DNA of 20,863 nt. Source: a virus. The notes under the pieces are model-generated. The model was not told the DNA's origin, ran no database searches, and saw only the letters and a list, made by a program, of their open reading frames with translations. The stretch is taken from IMG/VR virus record IMGVR_UViG_3300025869_000126, positions 1 through 20,863 of that record. One strand, given 5' to 3'. A program made the translations under genes and the position numbers. Every line of letters begins with the position of its first letter. The first letter of the stretch is position 1. Below, piece by piece: positions 7,596 to 20,317 of this stretch.

Positions 7596-7623
7596 TTGAC
7601 AATATCCTATATTAGTTTATAGG
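7596..7623 (+). promoter_or_regulatory. Candidate promoter for the structured leader and amidoligase block
   Basis: A perfect TTGACA (7596-7601) is followed after 16 bases by TATAGG (7618-7623, four of six). The -35 region reads TTGACAAT, the same eight bases as the promoters at 13717 and 15865. Transcription would begin about 7630, at the start of a hairpin. Confidence 0.55.
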
Positions 7624-7630
7624 GTATTAT

Positions 7631-7655
7631 CAAGTATTATGTGGTTTAATACTTG
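7631..7655 (+). other. Hairpin at the predicted 5' end of the leader RNA
   Basis: CAAGTATT (7631-7638) and AATACTTG (7648-7655) form eight perfect pairs with a 9-base loop. It begins almost exactly where transcription from the preceding promoter should start, so it may be a 5' stabilising hairpin. The 11-base string ACTTGGCTTAA at 7651-7661 is repeated from 7069-7079. Confidence 0.6.
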
Positions 7656-7665
7656 GCTTAAATTA

Positions 7666-7787
7666 TGTGAGGTAATTCTAGCTTTAACACTAACAGTAAT
7701 GAGATGGAAACAACAAATTCCAAACTTGTTAAAGTACTTTCATTATGGCTTATGATGTTATTGTCTAGGCTAGAATTATAACTCACA
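7666..7787 (+). ncRNA. Candidate structured leader RNA upstream of the amidoligase gene
   Basis: A long closing stem is visible. TGTGAG (7666-7671) pairs with CTCACA (7782-7787), then a small internal loop (one base against three), then TAATTCTAGC (7673-7682) pairs with GCTAGAATTA (7769-7778). Inside it, TAATGA (7697-7702) can pair with TCATTA (7740-7745), and AACAA (7712-7716) with TTGTT (7726-7730). No reading frame with a ribosome site crosses it. The AGGAG of the amidoligase gene begins nine bases after the outer stem, so the element lies in its 5' leader. It does not match any riboswitch I know. It could also be a small mobile repeat with 16-pair ends, but no target duplication is visible. 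Confidence 0.5.
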
Positions 7788-7805
7788 ATCTAACAGGAGT
7801 CTTTT

Positions 7806-8993
7806 ATGACTTTACTACAATTTATACGACAACCTGTCTTTAACTTATCTAATGAGCAAATTAGAAATGTGTTAGACGATAGTCAACTACCAAATGGTTG
7901 GTCAGCAACTATGGTACAAAGATTTATTAATCAATGTCCATATGACAATCTAGTAGATTCACTCAATGACAGCTATTATGATTTGAGAAATTGCCATGAT
8001 TGTGGCGATGCTATGTATGATGATGATGCCTACTTATGTTATGAGGGTGATTATACGATTTGCTCTGATTGTTCAGATTCTAATTATTATTATTCAGAGA
8101 ATCGTGACACATATATTCATAATGATGATTATGATGAGTATGATTCTGACTATGATGATGAGGGTTATTCTGGTGTTCACAGATACGAAACAAATGTCCT
8201 TGACCACCTTGACTTCCAACTCACAGCTAGTGAGCAACAGCAACAAAACAAGGGTAAGAAACTCTTGTATTGTGGTGTTGAATTAGAGGTCGAGAGGAGA
8301 AACGATTGTCCAGATGATATTGCCCACCATATCAATACATCTGTACTACCAGACTTTGCTATCTGTAAATCAGATGGCTCACTTGACAATGGCTTTGAGA
8401 TTGTGACAGCACCAAGTACTTATGCTATGCACAAAAAGAATTGGTCAAAGTTCTTTGATGACGAGCAATGTCGAGACAATCTGAAGGGTTGGTCTACAGA
8501 TACAGCAGGACTTCATATTCACTTATCAAGAAATGCTTTAACACCTTCAGAGATTGGTAAAATACTTATATTTATCAATGACGAAACCAACAAAGATTTC
8601 ATTGACCAGATTGCTGGTCGCTCATCTCATCAATGGGCAAAGAAATCGCCCAAGAAAATTACAGATGCTTTCAATTCTTCAGACAAGTATGAGGCTGTCA
8701 ATACATCACACAGGAATACAATCGAACTTCGTATCTTTCGTAGTAATGTATCCAAGCATGGTTTCTTTCGTGTCTTAGAATTTGCATTTGCATTATCTGA
8801 CTTTGTCAAATCAACTTCAATAGCTTTGACAAGTTTACACTACACAGCTTTCTTTCGTTTCATGTCTAGACCAGAAAACAAATCGACTTACCCAAACTTA
8901 TCAGCTTGGTTAATTCGTAAAGGTCACATCAATGGAAAGCCTTCACGCTCAATTAGTGAGCAAGAAGAACTAACTAGCACAGCTACTAACTAG
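7806..8993 (+). CDS. Amidoligase (COOH-NH2 ligase) with N-terminal zinc-ribbon-like domain, 395 aa
   Basis: This is a predicted ATP-dependent ligase of the glutamine-synthetase-like amidoligase family, forming amide or isopeptide bonds between a carboxylate and an amine. The catalytic part shows the family signatures in order: CGVELEVE (156-163), KSDGSLDNGFEIVTAPSTY (188-206), GLHIHLSR (235-242) and IELRIFRSN (306-314), supplying the expected Glu, His and Arg residues. Residues 63-89 contain CHDC and CSDC pairs plus C78, a likely zinc ribbon. Residues 91-126 form a striking Asp/Tyr-rich linker. AGGAG lies six bases before the ATG. The next gene is a class II amidotransferase. Such pairs are described in phages as peptide- or metabolite-modifying systems. 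The substrate is unknown. Confidence 0.87.
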   Translation: MTLLQFIRQPVFNLSNEQIRNVLDDSQLPNGWSATMVQRFINQCPYDNLVDSLNDSYYDLRNCHDCGDAMYDDDAYLCYEGDYTICSDCSDSNYYYSENRDTYIHNDDYDEYDSDYDDEGYSGVHRYETNVLDHLDFQLTASEQQQQNKGKKLLYCGVELEVERRNDCPDDIAHHINTSVLPDFAICKSDGSLDNGFEIVTAPSTYAMHKKNWSKFFDDEQCRDNLKGWSTDTAGLHIHLSRNALTPSEIGKILIFINDETNKDFIDQIAGRSSHQWAKKSPKKITDAFNSSDKYEAVNTSHRNTIELRIFRSNVSKHGFFRVLEFAFALSDFVKSTSIALTSLHYTAFFRFMSRPENKSTYPNLSAWLIRKGHINGKPSRSISEQEELTSTATN

Positions 8994-9005
8994 AAAGGGT
9001 AACAT

Positions 9006-9953
9006 ATGTGTTTAATTATTAAAACTGACAATCCAAGTCAACTACATAGTGGTTTATTAGAAACTGCTTACGAAAACAATCCAGATGGTTTTGGTGTAAT
9101 GTTTTGTAACAATGGCAAACTACACACTCACAAAATCGTACCCAAGACTTTCAAAGATGTTGAAAAGCTATGGGATAAATACAAGAATGTTGATTCTGGT
9201 ATGGGTATCCACTTCAGATTCAACACCAATGGAGATACTAACCGAGCTATGTCGCACCCTTTTGAAGTCTTATCCAAAGCCAAAGGTGATGACAGGGATA
9301 TGTGGGTAATGCACAATGGACCTCAACTTCCTACACCCATGATTGACAACAACAAATCTGACACACATCAGTTTGTCAAATGGGTATTACGACCACAACT
9401 CTCAGCCAATCCCAAACTACTACACAATGCAGAGTGGCAAGAAATGATTGAGGAACTTATTGGTACTGACAAGTTATTATTTCTTGATGGCAAAACCAAA
9501 GAGTTTGTCATCTTCAACGAATCTGAGGGCAAAGATATGGACAATGTAGGTTGGTTATCCAATACCTATTCTATCCAACCTTCTAGCTATGGTGTGCGTG
9601 ACAAGTACTACGACTTCGAAACTAACACCATGAAAGATGTTGCCAAAGACAAATACACTTGGGCATATGATGATGAAGATTGGGCATACTCTAGCTATGG
9701 TGGTGGCTATCGTACAGTACCACGACAAAAATTCACAGGTCAGACATCTGGCAAAGTCATAGACTACACAGCCGACAAAGGGGGGCAAGTAGATACTAAA
9801 GCTGTCGAAGATGATAGCTTGATGTACAATGGCAAACATCTACAATGGGATGACCTGTGTACTAGAGACAGAGAAGAACTTGTCGAACTATGCGAAGAAA
9901 ATCCTGTGGGTGTAGCAAGTTACATTCACACCAACATTACAGGGGGCAACTAA
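9006..9953 (+). CDS. Class II glutamine amidotransferase-like protein, 315 aa
   Basis: This is an Ntn-hydrolase-fold glutaminase domain that would release ammonia from glutamine or open a gamma-glutamyl amide. The nucleophile Cys is residue 2 (MCLII), so the initiator Met must be removed. Other family features are NNPDGFG (24-30), IHFRFNTNG (68-76), SHPF (83-86) and MHNG (102-105), matching the usual PDG.G, HxR.AT, HPF and xHNG positions. The C-terminal 110 residues (from about 205) are Tyr/Asp/Thr-rich and have no recognised domain. An AAGGG site lies before the ATG. It directly follows the amidoligase, so it may supply ammonia to it or reverse its linkage. Confidence 0.87.
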   Translation: MCLIIKTDNPSQLHSGLLETAYENNPDGFGVMFCNNGKLHTHKIVPKTFKDVEKLWDKYKNVDSGMGIHFRFNTNGDTNRAMSHPFEVLSKAKGDDRDMWVMHNGPQLPTPMIDNNKSDTHQFVKWVLRPQLSANPKLLHNAEWQEMIEELIGTDKLLFLDGKTKEFVIFNESEGKDMDNVGWLSNTYSIQPSSYGVRDKYYDFETNTMKDVAKDKYTWAYDDEDWAYSSYGGGYRTVPRQKFTGQTSGKVIDYTADKGGQVDTKAVEDDSLMYNGKHLQWDDLCTRDREELVELCEENPVGVASYIHTNITGGN

Positions 9954-9954
9954 T

Positions 9955-10737
9955 ATGGACTTCACACCTAACATTAACTACTCTTACAATAACGAATACA
10001 TCTTTGGTATTCCATTCAACAAAAGCTACCAACTACTATGTCGCACCACACGAACTATAAATGGTGTGACCGAAGATGTCTGGGCAAACACCCAGAAAAT
10101 GTATGCTAGTGGAGAAATGTTTCCTAGATTCATGCAACTATCTGACATTGAGTTTGGTGTTATGAAATCTAACAAAGAGATAATCTTCAACACCACCAAT
10201 ACAGATATGAATATACCCAAGAAAAACTATACACATTTTATTATCAAGGGTACAGCAATATCAAATGGAGAGTGGCACAGATTATCTACACCTCAAGATA
10301 CTGTTAGGTGGTCTGCATTTGAACTCAAACACCTACGACACAATCGTACCATACAGCAATCTTATCCACACATGATGAATAGATTACAGAATACTTATGA
10401 TTCTGGTCAGACATTGTGGTCAAAGCTATGCGACTATTCTCTTAGAACTGTGAGAGAGATAACAACTAGGCAAAGATGTCAAGCTGTAACAAAAGAATTA
10501 TCCAGACAGAGATACTTCAACAACTTCAAGCTACCTCGTACAGCTAAGACTATTCAGTTTGAGACTATACAGTACGAAGTATCTGCTAGAAAGAAGAGAG
10601 GTTTGTCTCTTGGTACACCTCGTGTCAAAGGACAATCAGTAATATCATCTGTGTTCAACTATCCATTAGAGAACAATCACAGATACACATTGAATTGGTC
10701 ATCACTACGACACGCACATAATGGTTATGCAGTATAA
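9955..10737 (+). CDS. Unknown protein in the amidoligase block, 260 aa
   Basis: This is a 260-residue protein with no domain I recognise. It is rich in Asn, Thr, Tyr and Arg. The N-terminal half looks beta-rich (NEYIFGIPFNKSYQLLCRTT). The middle has a basic helical region with many Arg (SLRTVREITTRQRCQAVTKE). The C-terminal part holds ARKKRGLSLGTPRVKG. It has no signal peptide or membrane span. It starts two bases after the amidotransferase stop and has the same codon style as its two upstream neighbours, so it probably works with them. It could be the partner, target or DNA-binding component of the amidoligase system, but this is inference. Confidence 0.75.
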   Translation: MDFTPNINYSYNNEYIFGIPFNKSYQLLCRTTRTINGVTEDVWANTQKMYASGEMFPRFMQLSDIEFGVMKSNKEIIFNTTNTDMNIPKKNYTHFIIKGTAISNGEWHRLSTPQDTVRWSAFELKHLRHNRTIQQSYPHMMNRLQNTYDSGQTLWSKLCDYSLRTVREITTRQRCQAVTKELSRQRYFNNFKLPRTAKTIQFETIQYEVSARKKRGLSLGTPRVKGQSVISSVFNYPLENNHRYTLNWSSLRHAHNGYAV

Positions 10738-10921
10738 TACCGATTGTATACCGAAAGATTCCGATAGGTACTGATATCGAGGTAAGTAGGGTAATGACTA
10801 TCTCTTATATATAAAATATATATATAATAAAAATTGTATGTATATAGTAATATATAGGAGTCTTCCGCCACCCATTCTACCAAAAGCGTACCTCTCGGTA
10901 TCTATCGGTAGTCTATCGGTA
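10738..10921. repeat. Inverted iteron-like arrays around an AT-rich core; candidate origin or operator
   Basis: The left arm (10738-10770) and right arm (10889-10921) are 33-base imperfect inverted repeats, agreeing at 27 of 33 positions. Each arm itself holds three direct copies of a motif near TACCGATAGAT. The CCGA cores lie at 10740, 10751 and 10761 on the plus strand, and the TCGG cores at 10895, 10905 and 10916. Spacing is thus 11 and 10 bases in both arms, one DNA turn. Between the arms is an almost pure A/T stretch (about 10803-10857). Both outer ends abut TATAAT. The 10922-10962 remainder holds no gene. The layout fits a replication origin or a cooperative operator. Confidence 0.7.
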
Positions 10922-10962
10922 TAATGCCTAATTATTTTATTGACAAAAGAAAGGATTATGAT

Positions 10963-11079
10963 ATGATTACATTTACAATATTTGCACTAGGACTAGCTAC
11001 AGGAATGTTGGCTACTTATATTACATACTGCATATGGGTAATCTGTATGTGGATAATTAATCAGAAGAGGGGGATATGA
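10963..11079 (+). CDS. Small membrane peptide, 38 aa
   Basis: This 38-residue peptide is almost entirely hydrophobic from residue 2 to 32 (begins MITFTIFALGLATGMLATYI), with aromatic and Cys residues in the second part and a basic end (NQKRGI). It would form one long or two short membrane spans. AAAGGA lies before the ATG. It ends two bases before the next small peptide. No family is recognised. It could be a membrane-active early peptide, or a small substrate or anchor for the surrounding modification genes. The latter is speculation from position. Confidence 0.6.
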   Translation: MITFTIFALGLATGMLATYITYCIWVICMWIINQKRGI

Positions 11080-11080
11080 T

Positions 11081-11155
11081 ATGGAAACTATATTAACTTA
11101 TATAATCTTAATTGTTCTTGGTACTCTCGTACTTTGGTGGGGGACAACACGATGA
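11081..11155 (+). CDS. Tiny membrane peptide, 24 aa
   Basis: This 24-residue peptide begins METILTYIILIVLGTLVLWW and ends GTTR, so it is one membrane span with almost no exposed part. AGAGGGGG lies about 7 bases upstream. The ATG of the next gene lies inside its stop (ATGA). The coupling and ribosome site support translation despite the length. An alternative is that it serves only to deliver ribosomes to the next start. Confidence 0.5.
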   Translation: METILTYIILIVLGTLVLWWGTTR

Positions 11156-11676
11156 GACTAGATAAACACCTACCACCCAACGCAATACAGGTCAGATATG
11201 TACACCCATACTATGAAGGGGTGTATGATGATGAGGATAACTTTGTAGAAGAATACTGCACCAATGAAAGTACAGCTACCGATGTATACAAACTAATCAG
11301 AAAAGCACATAGGGAAAAACAATCTTACTACTACCGAAGAAGAACTAGAGGTTTATCATCTGAAGATGCTAGGAATTATGGCTCTTGGGTAGACAGACAG
11401 CACACTACCGACATACCTAAATACAACATCAAGGTCAGGAAACTTGGTCGCAGAGTTGTCATTGAATACAACCCAGAGTATGCACTCAAGATGTTTGAGA
11501 TACAAAAACAAAAACTAATCAATGCAAACAAACCCAGACACAGATCTGCCCCAAAGGTATTTATGGATGCCCAAACAGCCGCACAAGAACGAGCTAGGGT
11601 AAGTATAGAAGATATGTTTAGAGACATGGAGTTAGATACATCATTACTACCATCAGAAAGGAATGAACATGAATGA
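11152..11676 (+). CDS. Unknown basic protein in the amidoligase block, 174 aa
   Basis: This is a 174-residue protein with no recognised domain. The start at ATG 11152 is chosen because it overlaps the stop of the tiny membrane peptide and follows a GGGGGA site. An upstream TTG in frame is less likely. It begins MRLDKHLPPNAIQVRYVHPY, has an acidic patch (DDEDNFVEEY), then an Arg/Tyr-rich part (REKQSYYYRRRTRG) and a KVRKLGRRVVIEYNPEYALK stretch. The C-terminus (from about 145) is a charged helix. Its place between the amidotransferase and the cyclotransferase-like gene makes it a candidate component of the same system. Confidence 0.7.
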   Translation: MRLDKHLPPNAIQVRYVHPYYEGVYDDEDNFVEEYCTNESTATDVYKLIRKAHREKQSYYYRRRTRGLSSEDARNYGSWVDRQHTTDIPKYNIKVRKLGRRVVIEYNPEYALKMFEIQKQKLINANKPRHRSAPKVFMDAQTAAQERARVSIEDMFRDMELDTSLLPSERNEHE

Positions 11677-11962
11677 GATAGGACAGAAAGTATCCAAGAA
11701 AGATTTGAATCTCGTACAAGTAGAATGGCTCGACGCAATGTCGGATGATAACACTTGGCAAGAACTAGATGAACTACGAAAACAAAAGCTAAGACCTGTC
11801 ACCTGTGTCGGTTGGCTGCTAACACAAAATTCAGAGGTGACTATACTTATATCATCATTCGATGAAGATAGTCAATGTGGTGGTGGGGGTACAGTTATAC
11901 CTACTAACTGCGTACAAAAAATTACGAAGGTAAGGGAGAAAAATGACGACACAAACAACTAG
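11669..11962 (+). CDS. Conserved-type small phage protein, 97 aa
   Basis: This 97-residue protein contains VQVEWLDAMSDDNTWQELDE, then CVGWLLTQNSEVTILISSFD and a Gly-rich turn before TVIPTNCVQKITKV. The layout (VEWxDA.S.D..W, then VGWLL.....I.L..S.DED, then IP...I.KI) resembles a small all-beta family common in phage early regions, known to me only as hypothetical. The ATG at 11669 is chosen because AAAGGA lies about six bases upstream. The ATG at 11663 is too close to it. It overlaps both neighbours (8 and 20 bases). Confidence 0.75.
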   Translation: MNEIGQKVSKKDLNLVQVEWLDAMSDDNTWQELDELRKQKLRPVTCVGWLLTQNSEVTILISSFDEDSQCGGGGTVIPTNCVQKITKVREKNDDTNN

Positions 11963-12368
11963 CCTATTTGTATATGGCACACTCAAGAGGGGGCACAGAT
12001 TGAATAGTGTGCTAGGCGGCGGCTCAACTTTGATATACCCTGCCATAACACTATTAAACAACTACGACTTACAGGGATATGCCGACGCATTTCCTATAAT
12101 GACACTAACAGAAGAAGGAGAAGGATACAGAATATTGGGAGAACTATATTCAGTAATGCCCTCTGTCATGGATAGGGTAAACTCTATCGAGGGTGGTGCG
12201 GGTTACATACCATACATAGTAGATGTGAGACCGATAGATTCTAATGAGAAAAGAGTAGAACAAGCAATCACATTTATCTATCCTAACACCGACAAGTACA
12301 TGACCTTATCGCCTATCAATTCTACCAAGATGTCTGACATAACAGGGGAAGTAAAGGTGTGGGCATGA
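11943..12368 (+). CDS. Gamma-glutamylcyclotransferase-like (GGCT/AIG2 fold) protein, 141 aa
   Basis: The GGCT fold cleaves gamma-glutamyl amines or amides with formation of 5-oxoproline. Family features are present: FVYGTLKRG at 9-17 (substrate-binding YGTL loop), GELYSV at about 66-71, and IEGGAGYIPYIVDV at about 82-95 with a Glu at the usual catalytic place before the Y.R/Y.P strand. Length fits the family. GGGAG lies about 5 bases before the ATG. Its stop overlaps the next start (ATGA). With an amidoligase and a class II amidotransferase 2-4 kb upstream, it probably removes, trims or recycles a gamma-glutamyl linkage made by that system. Activity is not proven. Confidence 0.85.
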   Translation: MTTQTTSLFVYGTLKRGHRLNSVLGGGSTLIYPAITLLNNYDLQGYADAFPIMTLTEEGEGYRILGELYSVMPSVMDRVNSIEGGAGYIPYIVDVRPIDSNEKRVEQAITFIYPNTDKYMTLSPINSTKMSDITGEVKVWA

Positions 12369-12544
12369 TGCATTTTGTAACAAGTCTGATGATGATTATA
12401 TGTTTGACTTGCATACCAACGGCACTTATGATAGGAGTGTTTACCGATCCTTACTACAGGAATCCGCTTGTATTTGGGATACTAATTTTTACAGTTATGA
12501 TAGGAGTATTTATATGGCAAGAGACCCATACAAGAAAAAAATAG
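12365..12544 (+). CDS. Two-span membrane protein, 59 aa
   Basis: This 59-residue protein has two hydrophobic segments, one near the start (SLMMIICLTCIPTALMIGVF) and one after a short polar loop (PLVFGILIFTVMIGVFIW), then a basic tail. The start at 12365 overlaps the GGCT stop. A second ATG follows immediately at 12368. No motif identifies it. A membrane-active or superinfection-type protein is possible. Confidence 0.65.
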   Translation: MMHFVTSLMMIICLTCIPTALMIGVFTDPYYRNPLVFGILIFTVMIGVFIWQETHTRKK

Positions 12545-17168: not shown

Positions 17169-18245
17169 ATGGGTGAGTATGCAGTGCACAGAAGAGTTGC
17201 GTCACAACTTGTAGATAAACCACAGATCTGCATTGTTATGGATCATCCTTCCAACGACGAAGTACGTTTGAATAAAATACTTGCAGGTGATTTTATTATA
17301 AGCAGAATCTGTACACAAGTCGGTATTGACATTAACAAATGCATGCTCACCCACGCATTCCAACTAAAGCCTGCACAGGACAACTTACAAAACTTCTTTC
17401 ACAAAAGAAGTGAGTACAAAGCTTTATGCAAAGACTCTGAGTGGAGAACGCCTTATCCGATTACCACCTATGGATACCTCAAACAGGAGATGGGTCAAGA
17501 CTTAGAACGTTTGTATAATGAAATCAATGAAGCACAGCCTAACGTAATTATTGCAATGGGTAGTATTTCATTGTGGGCACTGACGGGCTTTGATAAGATT
17601 GGTGTGTATCGGGGTGCTGTGATTGAATCTTCTACGGATTCTCTTAACAGAAATTACAAAATTATACCTTCTTATAGTCCGTCAGCCGTCTTTAAAAATT
17701 ATGGATTTAGATATCATCTTTATTCAGATTATAAAAAAGCAAAACGAGAATCAAGAACATCAAAGATAAATTACGAAGAACGAGAACTTTGGATAGAACC
17801 AAGCATAGAAGACTTATATACATTTGAAAGTAAATACATCAAAGATTTGGGTGACACCAAGCCTTTATCATTCGACATTGAAACAGCAGGCGGGCAGATA
17901 ACTTGTATTGGGTTTGCCCCCTCCTTAAACCACGCAATCGTTGTACCATTTACATATAACTATTGGGCTGAACCCGATAGGAAAAAAGCTTGGGCATGGG
18001 TTAAGAGATTATTAGAAGACGAGACCATAGTTAAAGTTGCACAGAACCAGACATATGATGTGTCATGGTTGAAGTATATGCAAGACATAGAAGTCAGAGG
18101 AACGATCCACGACACTATGCATGCACAACACTCATTGCAACCAGAACTAGAAAAAGGTCTTGGATTCCTGGGCTCCACATACACTAACGAGGGTGCATGG
18201 AAAACTTTAGCCAAGTTTTCTGACAGCACAAAAGCCGATGAGTAG
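17169..18245 (+). CDS. Family A DNA polymerase, N-terminal piece: UDG-like domain plus part of 3'-5' exonuclease, 358 aa
   Basis: Residues 1-190 resemble a family 4 uracil-DNA glycosylase: CIVMDHPSND (21-30) stands where GEAPG..ED is usual, VIIAMGSISLWALTG (126-140) matches the core strand and helix, and IIPSYSPSAVFKN (165-177) stands for the YHPS motif. The catalytic loop is degenerate, so activity is doubtful. Residues 230-350 are the proofreading exonuclease: Exo I is LSFDIETAGG with D236 and E238, Exo II is AQNQTYDVSWL with N293 and D297, and IHDTMHAQHSLQPE follows. The protein stops before the Exo III motif, which is found at the start of the gene at 18773. It should therefore act together with that product. 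Confidence 0.87.
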   Translation: MGEYAVHRRVASQLVDKPQICIVMDHPSNDEVRLNKILAGDFIISRICTQVGIDINKCMLTHAFQLKPAQDNLQNFFHKRSEYKALCKDSEWRTPYPITTYGYLKQEMGQDLERLYNEINEAQPNVIIAMGSISLWALTGFDKIGVYRGAVIESSTDSLNRNYKIIPSYSPSAVFKNYGFRYHLYSDYKKAKRESRTSKINYEERELWIEPSIEDLYTFESKYIKDLGDTKPLSFDIETAGGQITCIGFAPSLNHAIVVPFTYNYWAEPDRKKAWAWVKRLLEDETIVKVAQNQTYDVSWLKYMQDIEVRGTIHDTMHAQHSLQPELEKGLGFLGSTYTNEGAWKTLAKFSDSTKADE

Positions 18246-18610
18246 TGAAACGACCCAATTTTTTCTCAGCTAAATCCATAGATAAAGTATGGGATCAGCA
18301 ATCCGAATCTTATGTAAGATTGTGGCGAGCCGTCCTTGACCAACTGTTGCAAGATTTATTGTATGAAGGTAATGGTAAAGAAGATAGGAAAGCCCACATA
18401 TATTCGTGGCAGTGGTTTGATAAAGATATAGAAGACTTTGAATCGGTGTGTGACTTGGCTGATTTAGATGCGGCTAGAACAAGGACAGAGATTAACAAAC
18501 TAATGGAGAAGGTATATGGCAGTAACTATAAACGAAAATTTGAAGAAAGCAAAAGAGCTATTGAGTGGCGACAGAGAAAAAGAATACGGAAACAAAAAAG
18601 CCAATCATGA
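18245..18610 (+). CDS. Small phage protein with VRLWRAV..DF..VCDLA motif, 121 aa, inserted between polymerase pieces
   Basis: This 121-residue protein starts at a GTG sharing a base with the preceding TAG stop. Its core, VRLWRAVLDQLLQDLLYEG, then WFDKDIEDFESVCDLADLDA and ARTRTEINKLMEKV, matches a small helical family frequent in phage early regions (LWRAV.lqal.D ... ..DF..VC.lAgLD...vr). I know that family only as hypothetical, and a helix-turn-helix-like end is possible. The C-terminus is very basic (RQRKRIRKQK). The last 95 bases overlap the next gene. It lies inside what should be one polymerase gene. Confidence 0.75.
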   Translation: MKRPNFFSAKSIDKVWDQQSESYVRLWRAVLDQLLQDLLYEGNGKEDRKAHIYSWQWFDKDIEDFESVCDLADLDAARTRTEINKLMEKVYGSNYKRKFEESKRAIEWRQRKRIRKQKSQS

Positions 18611-18782
18611 AAACATAGCTAAACTTTGGACTGCTTATCTTAAGACAGAAGTTTCTGCCCACGATGTAGCTATCTGTATGCTACTACTAAAAGTTGCACG
18701 ACTACAACAAGGAACTCCTAGTGCCGATACATATATTGATATGGTAGGGTACTCGGCTATTGCAGGAGAGATATGCGAATAA
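18516..18782 (+). CDS. DUF6378-like small protein, 88 aa, inserted between polymerase pieces
   Basis: This 88-residue protein contains the pattern of the phage DUF6378 family: AKELLSGDREKEYGNKKANH, then LWTAYLKTEVSAHDVAICML, LLKVARLQQG and DTYIDMVGYSAIAGE. The helical layout and conserved acidic residues recall MazG-like or all-alpha NTP pyrophosphatases and nucleotide-modification-associated domains, but the activity of this family is not established. AAGG lies before the ATG. The start lies inside the preceding gene, and the stop lies 10 bases into the polymerase piece. Confidence 0.83.
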   Translation: MAVTINENLKKAKELLSGDREKEYGNKKANHENIAKLWTAYLKTEVSAHDVAICMLLLKVARLQQGTPSADTYIDMVGYSAIAGEICE

Positions 18783-20317
18783 TTAAAAATACAGAAATAG
18801 GCAAACACGAGTTATCTAAGAATCAAATGAATTGGGTGTACTGTGCTTTAGATTGCACACTTACTCATGAGATATGGACAAAGATTTACGAAGAGTTGGA
18901 TGAAGAAGTAAGGGGCACATATCAATTTGAATTAAACAGCTTAAAGCCTGCGATGAGTATGATGTTAAAAGGACTCAAAGTAGATGAGGAGAAAGTACGT
19001 AGTATAAAGGAACCTCTTAAGAAGAATAGATTAAAACTAGAACGTATGTTACATTTGTTTGCCAATGCTGTATGGGGTAAAGATTTAAATCACAACAGCC
19101 CTGTTCAACTTAAAAAACTTTTATACGAAGAACTAAACTTACCACCTGTTGTTTCCTACAAGGGGGGCAAGCAAAAGATATCTACAGATAGAGCGGCGTT
19201 GGAACAATTATCAGAAACATATCCAAGAGCCAAACCATTCTGTTACACCATACTAGCACTGCGTGATATCGACAAACACTTATCTGTATTGGCATCTACA
19301 AGAGACAAAGACGGGCGTATTCGTTGCTCGTACAATGTAGCAGGCACAGAGACAGGTCGTTGGTCTTCTTCAGAAAGTCCTTGGCGTACAGGTACTAACT
19401 TACAAAATGTGACGAAAGATTTACGCGCTGTATTCATACCTGACACAGGACAAAAAATGTTCTATGCGGATTTAGAACAAGCAGAATCTAGAGCGGTTGC
19501 ATATTTAGCAGGCGATCAAAATTATATAGATGTTTGTGAGAGTACAGACTTGCATACAGAAGTTGTTAAAATGGTCTGGCCCAACATGGGTTGGTCTGGA
19601 GATCCTAAACAAGATAGAGCACTAGCGGACAAACCTTACTATTTGCATCACAGTTACAGAGATATTTGTAAACGAGCAGGACATGGTACTAACTATGGTG
19701 TTACGGCACACTCGCTTGCACGTCAGATTAAAATAAAAGTATCACAAGCTACAAGATTTCAGTTGCTTTATTTTGGTGGTATGGTATCATTAGAATCAGT
19801 AGAACGTTGGCATAAACAAGACATCAAGGGGGGCTTCAGAGAATTGATTGACCAAGGAGAAAAACTATCTGGCAATATGTTAAAAGTTAAAGGGGCGTTT
19901 CCTGGAATCAGAGATTGGCACCGTGCTATTCGCTTAGAACTAAATGAAAAGGGTTGCTTGACAACTCCATTAGGCAGACGCAGACAGTTTTGGGATAGAC
20001 TATCAGACAATTCTACCTTACGACAAGCCATTGCTTATGTACCACAATCAACAATAGGTGACTTACTCAATCTAGGTTTGTACAGAGTATGGAATGAGTT
20101 GGCTAGTGAAGGTGTTGAAGTGTTGGGTCAAGTACATGATGCAATACTCGGTCAATGTCCTATAGATAAAATAGATGAACTAATGCCAAAAGTATTAGAA
20201 AGAATGCACAATCCATTGATGGTCGATGGACGTAAAATGATTATACCGTCTTCAGTTGAGATTGGTGACACATGGAAGGATATGAAAACATGGCACGGAA
20301 CTACCCAGATTACATAA
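18773..20317 (+). CDS. polA: Family A DNA polymerase, C-terminal piece: Exo III plus polymerase domain, 514 aa
   Basis: This is the replicative polymerase of the phage. Residues 19-35 (MNWVYCALDCTLTHEIW) carry the Exo III motif Y23-x3-D27 that is missing from the 358-aa upstream product. The polymerase domain has TGRWSS (194-199), motif A FYADLEQAESR with D233, motif B RDICKRAGHGTNYG (296-309) with R296, K300 and Y308, and motif C QVHDAILG with H455 and D456. The motif B position equal to E. coli Phe762 is His304, and the usual Glu after the motif C Asp is Ala457. GGAG lies before the ATG. It overlaps the next gene by 28 bases. Confidence 0.92.
   Translation: MRIIKNTEIGKHELSKNQMNWVYCALDCTLTHEIWTKIYEELDEEVRGTYQFELNSLKPAMSMMLKGLKVDEEKVRSIKEPLKKNRLKLERMLHLFANAVWGKDLNHNSPVQLKKLLYEELNLPPVVSYKGGKQKISTDRAALEQLSETYPRAKPFCYTILALRDIDKHLSVLASTRDKDGRIRCSYNVAGTETGRWSSSESPWRTGTNLQNVTKDLRAVFIPDTGQKMFYADLEQAESRAVAYLAGDQNYIDVCESTDLHTEVVKMVWPNMGWSGDPKQDRALADKPYYLHHSYRDICKRAGHGTNYGVTAHSLARQIKIKVSQATRFQLLYFGGMVSLESVERWHKQDIKGGFRELIDQGEKLSGNMLKVKGAFPGIRDWHRAIRLELNEKGCLTTPLGRRRQFWDRLSDNSTLRQAIAYVPQSTIGDLLNLGLYRVWNELASEGVEVLGQVHDAILGQCPIDKIDELMPKVLERMHNPLMVDGRKMIIPSSVEIGDTWKDMKTWHGTTQIT

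Follow-up and report, generated by a model that had tools for sequence, protein, structure and literature searches.

An apparently reduced form of a known phage amidoligase module in an uncultured marine phage lineage

We analysed a locus at positions 7806–12368 of a 20,863-base IMG/VR virus contig (IMGVR_UViG_3300025869_000126; the whole contig is hereafter the window) that is predicted to encode an amidoligase, a class II, N-terminal nucleophile (Ntn) glutamine amidotransferase (GATase) and a gamma-glutamyl cyclotransferase-like protein (GGCT), together with three unassigned proteins, p260, p174 and p99 (Table 1). This gene set is best seen as a kind of module already known from other phages, present in the window lineage in what appears to be a reduced form, and comparison of gene neighbourhoods indicates that the linkage of the three enzymes is functional. 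In the reading that we prefer, to which we give a probability of roughly 0.45, the amidoligase and GATase of this reduced module would act as a split, glutamine-dependent amide-forming pair and GGCT would act on gamma-glutamyl products, with an envelope precursor as the likeliest target.

The sequence-only reading of this DNA had pointed to an association of the three enzymes, and the association held when neighbourhoods were counted in related phages. The amidoligase gene was followed by the GATase gene in 29 of 29 contigs with room (counted at the contig level), and a wider amidoligase scan, reaching down to 25–32% identity, brought in 60 newly fetched loci with room, each with GATase immediately 3′ of the amidoligase gene; these 60 overlap in part with the contigs counted before. 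GGCT lay no more than 5.2 kb from GATase in 17 of 17 contigs. Gene order at the locus was conserved across 31–40 contigs, with GATase always directly followed by p260 in this lineage (31/31 contigs), p260 by p174 (22/22), p174 by p99 (30/30) and p99 by GGCT (28/28). Among named phages, the amidoligase and GATase genes are adjacent in MEP401, MEP402, ctgrD200, Acinetobacter phage JM313 and the Marvin group, and stand within a wider module in phiM6, RHph_N3_13, LUZ24 and phiEco32. The case is strengthened by two unrelated phages in which GATase and GGCT are fused as one protein: C75C1 (L022:4001-4897), with a PF12224 amidoligase nearby, and ctfjg026 (L023:4001-5218), with an adjoining amidoligase-like gene recognized by motif only. 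Together, the adjacency counts, the constant proximity of GGCT and the fusions beside amidoligases argue for a functional linkage.

Direct searches of Pfam, NCBIfam and PDB sequences were uninformative for the amidoligase, GATase, p260, p174 and p99, so that profile comparisons were required. Judged by these and by its residue pattern, the product of the first gene is an amidoligase (a GS/GCS-like carboxylate–amine ligase) with a catalytic domain at approximately residues 154–340: it matches PHROGs 2443 (E = 5 × 10−5) and 7469 (E = 0.006), and its profile–profile comparison (hhalign) with PF12224-positive phage amidoligases gave 96% (E = 5 × 10−9). By itself, the window protein had no HMMER match to Pfam PF12224 (Amidoligase_2), a family matched by 10 of its 17 relatives (best E = 7 × 10−4). 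The active-site pattern of the ligase domain (ExE, DGSL..G.E, HxH and E.R) is present in the motifs GVELEVER, DGSLDNGFE, GLHIHLS and TIELRIF and is invariant in the 17 relatives, as are the individual residues E159, E161, E163, D190, S192, E198, H237, H239, R242, E307 and R309; eight of these positions (E159, E161, D190, S192, E198, H237, E307 and R309) are unchanged even among 13 diverse phage amidoligases. The zinc-ribbon-like N terminus that the sequence-only reading had pointed out corresponds to C63–C66/C86–C89, a putative zinc ribbon whose four cysteines are all invariant in the 17 relatives. The single scan made for bacterial relatives returned none. The 210 nucleotides (nt) 5′ of the gene (7596–7805) fold better than shuffled sequences (z = −5.6) and may form a structured leader; z was −3 or lower for this region in about two thirds of relatives. 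In a Microcoleus phage, the amidoligase adjoins a Kdo/WaaP-kinase-like protein, not a GATase (L019:2618-3498).

The GATase gene starts 12 bp downstream of the amidoligase gene, and its product begins Met-Cys, with C2, R71, N104, G105 and D119 invariant in 17 of 17 relatives; it thus has the N-terminal catalytic Cys and the Arg/Asn-Gly/Asp glutamine site expected of a class II GATase. Profile–profile comparison with phage class II GATases gave 98% (hhalign, E = 2.4 × 10−13), and the window protein by itself fell below the Pfam GATase models. Approximately 2 kb beyond it, GGCT matches PF06094 (E = 2 × 10−10; 41.7 bits versus a curated cut-off of 22.8), and its YGTL motif (Y11–L14) and catalytic Glu (E83) are invariant in 13 of 13 relatives. 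Both enzymes are where the sequence-only reading had placed them, and its expectation of conserved catalytic residues was borne out for all three families. For GGCT, a tblastn search of named phages gave no match; a profile search does detect the family. In one contig the GGCT frame is in two pieces (L118:7592-7955), reflecting gene decay or sequence error.

A five-gene 'peptidoglycan modification module' is attributed to phiEco32, LUZ24, PaP3, tf, RIO-1 and PSA-HP1 in the passages of PMC5498523 and PMC11945000 that cite Iyer 2009 and Hardies 2013, with a gene table in PMC3890496, and cell-wall modification has been proposed for it (PMC5498523, PMC11945000, PMC10580990). The window shares with this module an amidoligase, a class II GATase and a GGCT, in the same order and ahead of the replication genes, but has no match for an ATP-grasp or a COOH–NH2 ligase, and its amidoligase bears the N-terminal four-Cys motif. 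In LUZ24, the order is likewise amidoligase–GATase–…–GGCT, ahead of the primase, with the ATP-grasp gene standing where the window has p260 and p174. OM43 phages possess an amidoligase and a GATase (PMC10580990); in MEP401 and MEP402 these are adjacent and approximately 30% identical to those of the window, although the amidoligase is longer, GGCT gave no match, p260 and p174 are absent and the phage family is different. Sinorhizobium phage phiM6 carries amidoligase, GATase and GGCT together and Rhizobium phages RHph_N3 carry amidoligase and GATase, but in both an ATP-grasp lies between amidoligase and GATase, and phiM6 also has a COOH–NH2 ligase homologue. C75C1 and ctfjg026 resemble the window in having the amidoligase or amidoligase-like gene near GATase and GGCT functions, and differ in that these functions form a single protein.

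Profile searches of five relatives with long records (32–38 kb, possibly incomplete) found no ATP-grasp. The ATP-grasp profile was built from phiM6, LUZ24 and phiEco32, whose own matches show only that the search works; independent positives come from L199 and L200, relatives at a greater distance, in which ATP-grasp follows GATase, with a p174-like gene further downstream in L199, and GGCT lies elsewhere in the record. The COOH–NH2 ligase (PF14395) was found in none of four long relatives, with LUZ24 and phiEco32 as positive controls, and tblastn was negative too. Because neither gene was found in the long relatives and ATP-grasp is present in L199 and L200, the window lineage is best regarded as carrying a reduced form of the module, and ATP-grasp may have been lost in it. 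Across phages, GATase accompanies the amidoligase nearly always, GGCT often and ATP-grasp sometimes, and the module's forms make a series, from amidoligase and GATase alone through the addition of GGCT, of ATP-grasp and of COOH–NH2 ligase. This ranking and this series suggest that amidoligase and GATase are the core, or minimal catalytic unit, of the module.

Between p260 and p174 stands an inverted repeat of roughly 190 nt, with 38-nt arms that contain CGA/CGG units phased at roughly 11 nt and an AT-rich interior. Nearly every relative examined carries a comparable element of 170–240 nt at the corresponding position, with differing arm sequences. Folding energies were below those of shuffled controls in 27 of 27 examined (z from −3.5 to −13.5). 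Among 27 relatives, 10 of the 14 consensus pairs had changed on both sides, a level of covariation matched in 0 of 500 shuffles; the shuffles leave relatedness in place, yet all slid structures scored lower. Rfam gave no match for the element. Folding z was better on the plus strand in only 14 of 27, and the repeat may function either as an RNA or at the DNA level, as a dyad of the kind found in operator arrays or replication origins. Directly 3′ of it is a promoter-like site (TTGACA-16-TATGAT), of which TTGAC is kept in most relatives.

Drawing on enzyme families and gene co-occurrence, the preferred reading supposes that Cys2 of the GATase would release ammonia from glutamine, or attack a gamma-glutamyl amide; that the ammonia would pass to the amidoligase, which would activate a carboxylate in an ATP-dependent manner to form a new amide; and that GGCT would process gamma-glutamyl groups or remove them as 5-oxoproline. 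Expression would probably be early, because the genes stand close to the beginning of the rightward module and precede those for replication. A host envelope precursor, for example a peptidoglycan stem peptide, seems the likeliest target, and the benefit may be superinfection exclusion or host takeover. In PSA-HP1, expression of the comparable genes follows infection immediately (PMC7082346). In a sister subgroup (terminase approximately 79% identical), a gene for an ArdC-like antirestriction protein (PF08401 plus PF18818) lies near the amidoligase cassette (L163:4716-5588, L070:1462-2331, L067 and L069), in L163 between the small terminase gene and amidoligase–GATase–p260; the window gave no match for it. 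This neighbour and the immediate expression in PSA-HP1 both fit an early host-takeover or defence-related role, without proving it.

Several observations weigh against the preferred reading. No biochemical demonstration for any module member, including altered host peptidoglycan, was found in the literature searched. As ATP-grasp and COOH–NH2 ligase, to which other linkages of the peptidoglycan module are ascribed, were not found, the product must differ from the full module's set of linkages. No neighbouring GATase was detected beside the amidoligase in Microcoleus phage My-WqHQDG (L019) or Clostridioides phage AR1086-1 (L020). Finally, GGCT may be transcribed apart from the amidoligase–GATase pair, because the conserved promoter-like site and the inverted repeat divide the stretch.

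Other readings account for parts of the same evidence. The amidoligase might instead tag a protein or envelope peptide with an amino acid or a peptide, joined through an isopeptide bond, with GATase and GGCT serving as gamma-glutamyl erasers and not as an ammonia source. This is the direction taken in the literature on the module, which counts GGCT and GATase among degradation genes (PMC5498523), and the GATase–GGCT fusions would suit a combined processing enzyme; however, the most strictly linked partner of the amidoligase is GATase and not GGCT, as expected of a donor subunit, and the OM43 phages have amidoligase and GATase with no GGCT match, so that we hold such a write-and-trim system, which the sequence-only reading had inferred, to be possible but tentative. 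We think it unlikely that the enzymes make a small soluble compound, either a gamma-glutamyl or amidated metabolite or a nucleotide (a counter-defence signal, an osmolyte or a nucleotide derivative), in place of an envelope component. Amidoligase and GGCT families act on small molecules too, and in the sister phages the ArdC-like gene adjoins the cassette within one leading region, but family searches of the cassette proteins gave no nucleotide-handling domain, and gene neighbourhood is weak evidence for a pathway.

Similarly doubtful, in our estimate, is a self-sufficient minimal set of amidoligase, GATase and GGCT (together with p260 and p174, which are specific to the lineage) that would carry out an amide or gamma-glutamyl modification unlike that of the five-gene module, under the control of the covarying inverted repeat as an undescribed RNA or DNA element. 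Least probable by far is that unrelated genes stand side by side, with no common pathway, owing to a fixed genome order in the lineage. The whole region is indeed syntenic within the lineage, including p107 and p109, but amidoligase–GATase adjacency recurs across different genome backbones and hosts, and GATase and GGCT are fused in two phages. For the three enzymes this explanation is already contradicted; it may still hold for p260, p174, p99 and the membrane peptides.

The sequence-only reading had drawn p260, p174 and p99 into one system with the enzymes, and membership of all three was not supported. Synteny holds for p260 and p174 within the lineage, but neither matches a family or fold; the profile and structure comparisons that it had proposed for both proteins were run and recovered no known family or fold. 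The fastest-evolving of the proteins, p260, is 19–35% identical to aligned relatives whose GATases are 65–82% identical. Its AlphaFold2 (AF2) model (pLDDT 68.6) predicts a beta-rich domain at approximately residues 1–105, followed by helices; searches gave no phage-genome match, only scattered weak PHROG matches and no Foldseek or VIA match for the model. In p174, the N-terminal two thirds are conserved and the C terminus is variable; it had no phage-genome match, and its AF2 model (pLDDT 78.5) no confident fold match, an IF3-C/SepF-like fold being distrusted as weak (Z only approximately 4). The idea that p260 or p174 is a hidden ATP-grasp, suggested by the ATP-grasp between GATase and GGCT in LUZ24, was rejected on account of L199, which has both an ATP-grasp and a p174-like protein, the latter preceded by a 193-aa protein that is a possible p260 relative (by eye only). 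For p99, inclusion is doubtful: it matches PHROG 25889 (E = 1.7 × 10−11), its homologues in Pelagibacter phages are weak, and because those phages gave no match in the amidoligase search, p99 is probably independent of the enzymes and travels separately. Synonymous changes exceeded nonsynonymous changes in p260, p174, p99 and GGCT (dN/dS no higher than approximately 0.4 in each gene tested), and this purifying selection argues that they are real genes.

Every open reading frame (ORF) named in the sequence-only reading was recovered at its position (Table 1). In the left part of the window, the minus strand carries terminase genes and an ORF of 800 aa whose size and location resemble those of a portal gene; in the right part, the plus strand carries replication genes for a PD-(D/E)XK nuclease, an AAA ATPase and a split DNA polymerase A. 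The split polymerase (17169–20317) comprises a UDG-like plus 3′–5′ exonuclease ORF (17169–18245) and a polymerase ORF (18773–20317), separated by two further ORFs, one of 121 aa and one of the DUF6378 family.

Table 1 Features of the amidoligase locus, in window positions.
Feature	Position	Strand	Details and basis
Amidoligase	7806–8993	+	395 aa; PHROG matches, profile–profile comparison, invariant residues
Class II (Ntn) GATase, variable C-terminal tail	9006–9953	+	315 aa, starts MC; invariant residues, hhalign
p260 (260-aa protein)	9955–10737	+	Synteny; no family or fold match
Inverted-repeat element	10734–10925	.	Arms 10734–10771 and 10888–10925, AT-rich interior
Sigma-70-like promoter, TTGACA-16-TATGAT	10940–10967	+	11/12 consensus positions
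Membrane peptide, 38 aa	10963–11079	+	Read from sequence
Membrane peptide, 24 aa	11081–11155	+	Read from sequence
p174 (174-aa protein)	11152–11676 (ATG at 11152)	+	Synteny; no confident fold match
p99 (97/99-aa protein, PHROG 25889)	11663–11962 (97-aa form from 11669, 99 aa from upstream ATG)	+	
GGCT/AIG2 (GGACT), gamma-glutamyl cyclotransferase-like	11943–12368	+	141 aa; PF06094, motif residues
61-aa membrane protein	12359–12544	+	Overlaps GGCT end; recurs in relatives

Comparative genomics revealed the amidoligase module of phages years ago, with no demonstrated product found in the literature searched. Its three-enzyme form, here present in every contig that reaches the locus in an uncultured marine phage group, suggests that amidoligase and GATase are its irreducible core. 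With such a core, the module would be small enough for reconstitution and testing, and the covarying inverted repeat within the locus offers a separate testable object.

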